Below are positions 34,060 to 56,885 of a stretch of DNA of 64,000 nucleotides, in pieces. Each line of letters begins with the position of its first letter. Position 1 is the stretch's first letter. Position numbers and translations under genes: made by a program. Origin of the DNA: an uncultured Victivallales bacterium (lineage in GTDB: Bacteria > Verrucomicrobiota > Lentisphaeria > Victivallales > UBA1829); assembly GCA_944391115.1 (NCBI GenBank), contig CALXSJ010000003.1, forward strand, positions 1 to 64,000, in the 5' to 3' direction. A model generated the notes under the pieces. The model was not told the origin of the DNA and made no database searches. It saw nothing but the letters and a program-made list of their open reading frames with translations.

Positions 34060-34088
34060 TTGACATTTCATTGTTTGCGTGATAGATT
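34060..34088 (+). promoter_or_regulatory. Strong promoter P1 upstream of rplM
   Basis: TTGACA (34060-34065), 17-bp spacer, TAGATT (34083-34088). The transcription start is expected near 34095, some 370 nt before rplM. Confidence 0.7.
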
Positions 34089-34094
34089 GCCCGG

Positions 34095-34235
34095 ACAGTG
34101 GAATTGTGAGAGGTTCCGCTGCCGCCGTCTTCCGGTTTTAGAGAGAGCCTGTTGACGGTCGAGTCTTCTCCTGACTTTAAAAAGGAGATCAAAAAAGTGG
34201 GGGTGGAGGTCGAGAGGCCTTCACCTTTTTTCTTT
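34095..34235 (+). ncRNA. Structured leader or small RNA ending in an intrinsic terminator
   Basis: From the expected start of P1 to the T-tract, about 140 nt can fold into four hairpins: GTGGAA/TTCCGC, GCCGTC/GACGGT, TCTCCT/AGGAGA, and the terminator stem 34202-34211 with 34216-34225. The last is a 10-bp stem with two wobble pairs, closing a GAGA tetraloop. No start codon with a ribosome-binding site is seen inside. It may be an attenuator that controls ribosomal protein genes, or an independent small RNA. I do not recognise a named RNA family. Confidence 0.45.
34202..34235 (+). terminator. Intrinsic terminator in the rplM leader
   Basis: GGTGGAGGTC (34202-34211), loop GAGA, GGCCTTCACC (34216-34225), then TTTTTTCTTT. 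It lies between the P1 promoter and the rplM gene. Confidence 0.75.
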
Positions 34236-34302
34236 AGTTTCTCCCCCCCGGAAAAATCCAGAAAAATATCGGGAAAAGTTTTTATTTTCCCTTTCCTCCT
34301 CC

Positions 34303-34330
34303 TTGAAAAAAGCAATCGGGATGTTACATT
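34303..34330 (+). promoter_or_regulatory. Possible promoter P2 of rplM
   Basis: TTGAAA (34303-34308), 16-bp spacer, TACATT (34325-34330), downstream of the leader terminator. It would allow expression of rplM-rpsI independent of P1. Confidence 0.45.
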
Positions 34331-34464
34331 ATATGCTTCCGCGGCTGCATTTCCCGATCGCGGCCCGGTGTCCGGATTCATGGCCTGGCAGCATGGATCC
34401 TGAAAACAGGTTTTTTTGGTATTAAGCTTGAATGCAAGTAATTTGGAAAGCGGAGAAGTAGAAA

Positions 34465-34893
34465 ATGAAGACGTATCTGGCAAAGGCCGGCGAAATCGAG
34501 CGCAAGTTCGTCCTTTTCGACGCGGCGGATGTTCCCCTGGGCCGTCTTGCAGTGAAAATCGCGAATTCCCTTCGCGGCAAAGACCGTCCCACCTATACGC
34601 CGCATGTTGACACCGGCTGTTTCGTGATTGTCGTCAATGCGGAGAAAGTGCTCCTGACCGGCGCGAAAGAGGAAAAGAAGATGTACGAGTCCTTCTCGGG
34701 ATACCGCAGCGGCCACAAACTCAAAAAAGCCGCTGAAATCCGTGCGAAGAAACCCGAACAGATGATCCGTGAAGCCGTCTGGGGCATGCTGCCCAAGGGC
34801 CGCCTCGGCAGAGCGCAGTATGCGAAGCTGAAAGTTTATGCGGGCGCGGAGCATCCTCATGCGGCGCAGAACCCCGAAGCGGTAAAACTTTGA
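34465..34893 (+). CDS. rplM: 50S ribosomal protein L13
   Basis: A 142-residue ribosomal protein of full family length. Recognisable L13 parts are FVLFDAADVPLGRLAVKIA, KDRPTYTPHVDTGCFVIVVN, the YRSGHKLKKAAEIRAKKPEQ region, and AVWGMLPKGRLGRAQYAKLK. It is followed 13 nt later by rpsI, the conserved L13-S9 pair. Control by the structured leader upstream is likely. Confidence 0.97.
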   Translation: MKTYLAKAGEIERKFVLFDAADVPLGRLAVKIANSLRGKDRPTYTPHVDTGCFVIVVNAEKVLLTGAKEEKKMYESFSGYRSGHKLKKAAEIRAKKPEQMIREAVWGMLPKGRLGRAQYAKLKVYAGAEHPHAAQNPEAVKL

Positions 34894-34906: not shown

Positions 34907-35311
34907 ATGAACGCAGCAATGTCCAAATCTGAAATCGGTGCCACCGGACGCAGAAAAACGGCGAGCGCGAGAGTTCGCGTCTGCCAGGGTTCCGGCAAAA
35001 TTAAAGTCAACGGCGAAAATTTTGAAAAATACTTCAACGTGGAAGCCATCCGCGGCTTCATTCTTCAGCCTCTCACGCTGACCGGACTCGGCAATACGCT
35101 TGACGTTTGCGCGACCATCACCGGCGGCGGAAAAACCGGTCAGGCGGGCGCACTCCGCCACGGTATCGCGAGAGCCCTCATCAAATTCGACGAGTCTCTC
35201 CGTCCGGTTCTCAAGAACAGCGGAATGCTGACGCGCGATTCCAGAGAGAAAGAGCGCAAGAAAGCCGGTCAGCCCGGCGCCAGAAAGCGCTTCCAGTTCT
35301 CCAAGCGCTGA
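34907..35311 (+). CDS. rpsI: 30S ribosomal protein S9
   Basis: A 134-residue ribosomal protein whose C-terminal tail reaches the P-site tRNA. The family sequence is clear: GATGRRKTASARVRV near the start and the closing KKAGQPGARKRFQFSKR. The ATG at 34907 has GGAG upstream; a second in-frame ATG at 34919 is possible. It is followed by a perfect intrinsic terminator. Confidence 0.97.
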   Translation: MNAAMSKSEIGATGRRKTASARVRVCQGSGKIKVNGENFEKYFNVEAIRGFILQPLTLTGLGNTLDVCATITGGGKTGQAGALRHGIARALIKFDESLRPVLKNSGMLTRDSREKERKKAGQPGARKRFQFSKR

Positions 35312-56799: not shown

Positions 56800-56885
56800 T
56801 GGTGCCGAAGAAGGGACTTGAACCCTTACGCCCGTAAGAGCGCCAGATTTTGAGTCTAGTGCGTCTGCCATTCCGCCACTTCGGC
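56800..56885 (-). tRNA. tRNA-Leu (anticodon CAA)
   Basis: On the minus strand the acceptor arms GCCGAAG and CTTCGGC pair, followed by discriminator A and an encoded CCA. The anticodon loop is CTCAAAA between CTAGA and TCTGG, giving CAA (reads UUG). A long variable arm (GGCGCTCTTACGGGCGTAAG) and the T-loop GGTTCAAGTCC are present. The length of 86 nt fits leucine tRNA. Confidence 0.95.

Follow-up and report, generated by a model that had tools for sequence, protein, structure and literature searches.

As ribosomal leaders illustrate, unrelated RNAs have often evolved to bind one protein. For L13, the leader found in Firmicutes (L13_leader) is Rfam family RF00555. Leaders of rplM have been verified in E. 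coli and predicted in the Firmicutes and in the Bacteroidia, and all are assigned to L13 (PMC7247131). The Bacteroidia L13 leader is from Eckert and Weinberg 2020 (PMC7247131). A structured RNA from the Lentisphaerae, the Acido-Lenti-1 RNA (RF01687), was judged not to be cis-regulatory (PMC2864571). We found no ribosomal leader described in the literature for the Lentisphaeria, nor did our searches return a paper on this group that describes such leaders or small RNAs next to rplM.

The region upstream of rplM-rpsI

The window analyzed here is a stretch of 64,000 nucleotides from an uncultured Victivallales bacterium. A first-pass annotation of it had listed a near-consensus promoter, four hairpins, a strong intrinsic terminator and a second possible promoter ahead of rplM-rpsI, and every one of these features is present. 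On the plus strand the region runs from a promoter (34060-34088) through four hairpins to a terminator (34199-34228) and, after a gap, from another promoter (34303-34330) through a 5' UTR of about 128 nt into rplM (34465-34893) and rpsI (34907-35311). The two genes were correctly named, their products matching ribosomal proteins L13 (PF00572, Pfam 1.7e-38) and S9 (PF00380, Pfam 9.5e-47). The distance from the terminator to rplM, given before as 230 nt, is about 235 nt when measured to the ATG at 34465. Three promoter-like sites occur in 1.9 kb compared to 0.7 expected from shuffles. The first promoter, TTGACA-17-TAGATT with an extended TG, has 10 of 12 matches and is rightly called near-consensus; the second, TTGAAA-16-TACATT, is weaker.

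We compared the rplM upstream regions of the family, in which 32 of 36 genomes have rplM. The two halves of the region differ in history, the first being found in two genera and the second in the whole family. It is likely that they are two adjacent, independently transcribed units: a small RNA gene (unit A) and an L13-controlled rplM-rpsI leader (unit B). Conservation or covariation in relatives had been named beforehand as the check on this region; A is kept in six genomes, and the stems of B covary family-wide. Searched against Rfam 15, neither unit matched a family at the gathering threshold and nothing credible appeared down to E = 10. No L13 family was among these matches, in agreement with the earlier remark that no known L13 leader shape was recognised.

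A candidate small RNA gene beside rplM

The predicted RNA of unit A is about 140 nt long (34093-34235, plus strand) and comprises hairpin 1 (34093-34123), hairpin 2 with a GAGAG loop (34124-34159), hairpin 3 (34167-34188) and an intrinsic terminator (34199-34231). The terminator is strong, with a 13-pair stem (34199-34228) followed by a T run. The predicted fold of the 140-nt transcript consists of these four hairpins in a row, with an energy of -60.1 kcal/mol (z = -4.4); 0 of 200 shuffles were equally stable. Homologues are found in three congeners (G016, G017 and G018) and in two genomes of the sister genus (G013 and G014). Four of these relatives have the same order of four hairpins (z from -1.9 to -5.2), making five of the six homologues with the window included. 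The two sister-genus copies diverge in the 5' half, and that of G014 folds differently there. Between species the arms of hairpins 1 and 2 vary with pairing retained. GAGAG tops hairpin 2 in five homologues, and a GAGAG loop is seen in G014 too. All six retain the terminator stem, which shows a single two-sided change (G-C to A-U) alongside several changes on one side only (G-U to A-U, U-G to C-G). Hexamers similar to those of the promoter at 34060-34088 precede the homologues at the same distance and on the strand of the RNA, including the inverted copies described below.

The most conserved module, AGUC-UU-CUCC-N-GACU-(A-rich)-GGAG-AUCAAAAAAGUGGGGGUG, lies at 34162-34205, and a 22-nt core, GGAGATCAAAAAAGTGGGGGTG, is identical in the six genomes. 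The AGUC/GACU and CUCC/GGAG helices of the module are mutually compatible, and the third loop is A-rich. Together they would possibly form an H-type pseudoknot, whose pairs are almost invariant, so that covariation speaks neither for nor against it.

Each genome that has A carries a single copy, which is adjacent to rplM in every case; these are all four members of the genus and two of the three members of the sister genus. The exact core is present in 6 of 198 genomes of the class and absent from the remaining 192, even allowing 2 mismatches. A covariance model of the 3' part recovered the same six genomes at 86-101 bits and no other among the 198. An exact 20-mer scan of the core over 84,980 species genomes gave only two additions, L098 (Geobacteraceae) and L104 (Oscillospiraceae). 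Both are apparently protein-coding and score 12-18 bits as compared to 86-101 for true members, and we rejected them as homologues. The true 20-mer matches carry the labels Lentisphaerae, Lentisphaeria and Victivallales. No copy was found in viral contigs. The evidence for A comes from six genomes of two genera only.

In the window and the three congeners A has the orientation of rplM. The copies in G013 and G014 occupy the equivalent place but are encoded on the other strand; the promoters of A and rplM are neighbours there, and the terminator of A faces a convergent ORF. A gene cannot be attenuated by a unit that is divergent from it, and the arrangement in these two genomes therefore argues that A is an independent RNA. 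The first-pass annotation had left a choice between such an RNA, of about 140 nt, and an attenuator, with rplM-rpsI transcribed from the promoter at 34060 and L13 or S9 regulating the terminator at 34199-34228. The closeness of A to rplM and their shared orientation in the window and three congeners fit the attenuator. A regulated terminator of that kind would lie on the strand of rplM in all homologues, but in the sister genus A is on the other strand and points away from rplM. In addition, rplM retains its own conserved promoter and leader behind the terminator, and most of the family has leader B without A. The attenuator is contradicted by these observations and we regard it as extremely unlikely.

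The position of A behind a gene for an FAD-dependent protein, in the window and in G016, would also suit a unit without a functional RNA that serves the upstream gene as its 3' end or as an insulating terminator. Different genes lie upstream in G017 and G018, and this variation of the far-side gene among congeners means that A is not a 3' UTR tied to any single gene. A strong promoter precedes A, and conservation extends over the whole unit rather than the terminator alone, leaving the 3'-end explanation very unlikely. The length of A is similar to that of 6S RNA, and the Rfam 6S model finds nothing in the window's own genome (G000), as might be expected if A were a diverged housekeeping RNA of this type. 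However, A folds as four separate hairpins, whereas 6S RNA is a single long hairpin with a central bubble, and A is confined to two genera and has no Rfam match, RF00013 included; a 6S-like identity is hardly credible. With a promoter and a terminator of its own and conservation independent of its orientation to neighbours, A is supported as a stand-alone small RNA gene with a predicted sigma-70-type promoter and intrinsic terminator. The independent RNA proposed earlier is borne out in that the homologues retain promoter, hairpins and terminator.

The small RNA may act in trans through its conserved 3' module, where a CU-rich strand and an A-rich single-stranded stretch, possibly in a pseudoknot, would be available. 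It would do so without Hfq. A search for Hfq (PF17209) detected it in 5 of 14 control genomes but in none of the four from the genus, and we set aside an Hfq-dependent sRNA on the latter result. Pairing of A with the rplM 5' UTR was no better than with shuffles in five genomes. A short ORF in the core, with GTG GGG GTG as its start, was rejected by inspection, because the change of its next codon from GAG to AAG between genera tracks stem pairing.

Other RNA genes were noted along the way. In G029, from a genus without A, immediately past the rplM leader comes a tmRNA gene (153 bits; L022 2197-2553). Which RNA gene sits beside rplM therefore differs between genera. Elsewhere in the window a tRNA gene is encoded at 56803-56885 on the minus strand (57 bits).

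A putative L13 leader in the family

Unit B begins behind the putative rplM-rpsI promoter at 34303-34330 (plus strand), and similar elements are found in the equivalent place in relatives. The leader, or 5' UTR, spans 34337-34464, with a covariance-model match at 34331-34405 (70 bits). It contains two hairpins with invariant loops, CCCGAUC and CUGGC(A/G)G. Hairpin 1 (34339-34368) carries the apical loop AUUUCCCGAUC (34349-34359) and is an order-wide element. Hairpin 2 (34374-34400) has 9 pairs and the loop GCCUGGCAG (34383-34391) and is a family-wide element. The rplM Shine-Dalgarno sequence, GCGGAG (34450-34455), is found in relatives too. The earlier suspicion of a new rplM leader was right in that an undescribed leader is present, but it is located after the second promoter, in a stretch that had not been called structured. 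Directly behind hairpin 2 seven T (34411-34417) follow CCTG-AAAA-CAGG, a weak terminator-like element of this species; the T run is not conserved in relatives.

CCCGA followed by CUGGC(A/G)G, each in its own hairpin loop and behind the second promoter, was present in 29 of the 29 family sequences examined. A covariance model built from 22 family sequences gave 30 matches at E < 1e-5 in the 198 class genomes. All are in this family and just upstream of rplM, and for each of the 30 genomes, including G019 from outside the training set, the rplM site is the best match. DNA upstream of rplM is available in 31 family genomes, and 30 of them have B; the exception, G002, is the only testable one without a strong match and retains hairpin 1. 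Within the window the model scores 70 bits at the leader and at most 11 elsewhere. As in a ribosomal leader, B is a structured 5' UTR RNA with the same gene consistently downstream.

The stems of B also covary as those of a ribosomal leader would. In the model alignment of 24 distinct sequences, which leans towards the model used to make it, two-sided changes occur in 15 of 16 pairs. Cells with two-sided changes number 77, compared to 35 +/- 5 in shuffles and at most 44 with the partner slid, though the sequences are related and such counts and shuffle tests overstate significance. An alignment-free test likewise found that stems flank both loops better than shuffled flanks do.

Reach of the CCCGAUC hairpin through the order

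Beyond the family, 26 of 35 genomes from the rest of the order have CCCGAT in the 200 nt ahead of rplM, with 0.7 expected by shuffling. In other orders of the class it was found before rplM in 2 of 24. Of the 29 sequences with the motif, 24 have it in the apical loop of their predicted fold, as against 4.8 +/- 2.0 with shuffled flanks. The stems of this hairpin have no common sequence across the order. An invariant loop on stems free to vary would resemble a hairpin recognised by a protein. Leader hairpin 2 was not seen in other families of the order. One large family has a recurring GTGCGAA motif downstream of the CCCGAUC hairpin (L041, L044, L045 and L050), which is perhaps a different second leader element.

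Ligand and level of control

Strong B matches precede rplM-rpsI only. As the other rplM leaders are assigned to L13, this protein is a likelier ligand than S9, and B is probably a new ribosomal leader by which L13 controls its own production. Surplus L13 would bind the leader, and the bound leader would lower translation of rplM-rpsI. No conserved terminator was found in the leader among relatives, which favours translational control over attenuation. The rplM Shine-Dalgarno region is often predicted to be paired. We tried its sequestration by the leader hairpins as a candidate and rejected it: only one genome showed such pairing above the level of shuffles, which leaves the translational step weakly supported.

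A real leader with another ligand, either S9 or no ribosomal protein at all (a growth-rate or RNA-stability signal, for instance), is rather unlikely, yet several observations are compatible with it. The operon also contains rpsI, a search for rRNA mimicry for L13 found none, and ligand predictions for multi-gene leaders are uncertain (PMC7247131). Weighing against such a ligand, L13 is the assigned ligand of all three rplM leaders described elsewhere, one of which is experimentally verified (PMC7247131).

The question of mimicry was raised by the 5' end of the E. coli 23S rRNA, which has CCUGGCAG and hence CUGGCAG. That motif is missing from the family's own 23S and the candidate was dropped. 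In one complete 23S of the family neither full motif, CUGGCRG or CCCGAT, is present, and the 5' end reads CCUUGGCA. This gives no support for mimicry of the L13 site. Mimicry of rRNA sites is common among ribosomal leaders and is not required. No 23S rRNA was detected in the window's own assembly (G000); missing 23S rRNA is common in metagenome bins. In the ribosome uL13 is located near H1, H41 and H25, a placement that does not decide the question (PMC9687910, PMC10460392).

Comparison with known systems

At this locus the terminator before a ribosomal-protein operon appears to end an unrelated small RNA gene, and a terminator in that place need not be an attenuator. In size, promoter, terminator and its CU-rich conserved stretch, A is like trans-acting intergenic sRNAs. 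Unlike them, it belongs to no Rfam family, is known from two genera only, and occurs in a genus where no Hfq was found. Neither A nor B matches Acido-Lenti-1 (RF01687).

A wider proposal joins the two units. The CCCGAUC hairpin would be the core of a fourth kind of L13 leader, distinct in structure and shared across the order, and one family would have gained a second recognition hairpin. The small RNA next to it, which has stayed beside rplM despite an inversion, would be functionally coupled to the supply of ribosomal proteins. We offer this as speculation that is unlikely to hold.

B itself is like the known L13 leaders, the E. coli rplM operator and those of Firmicutes and Bacteroidia, in being a structured rplM-rpsI 5' UTR, probably autogenous via L13. 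If this is true, the Lentisphaeria L13 leader would be a further independent solution, with a minimal invariant loop and stems without common sequence, and B would be a compact system for L13-RNA recognition without obvious rRNA mimicry. Compared to the Firmicutes L13_leader, B has no match to the Rfam covariance model (cmscan down to E = 10), and compared to the E. coli rplM operator, the B model has no match in the region before E. coli rplM. From the Bacteroidia L13 leader B is set apart by its lineage, the Lentisphaeria.
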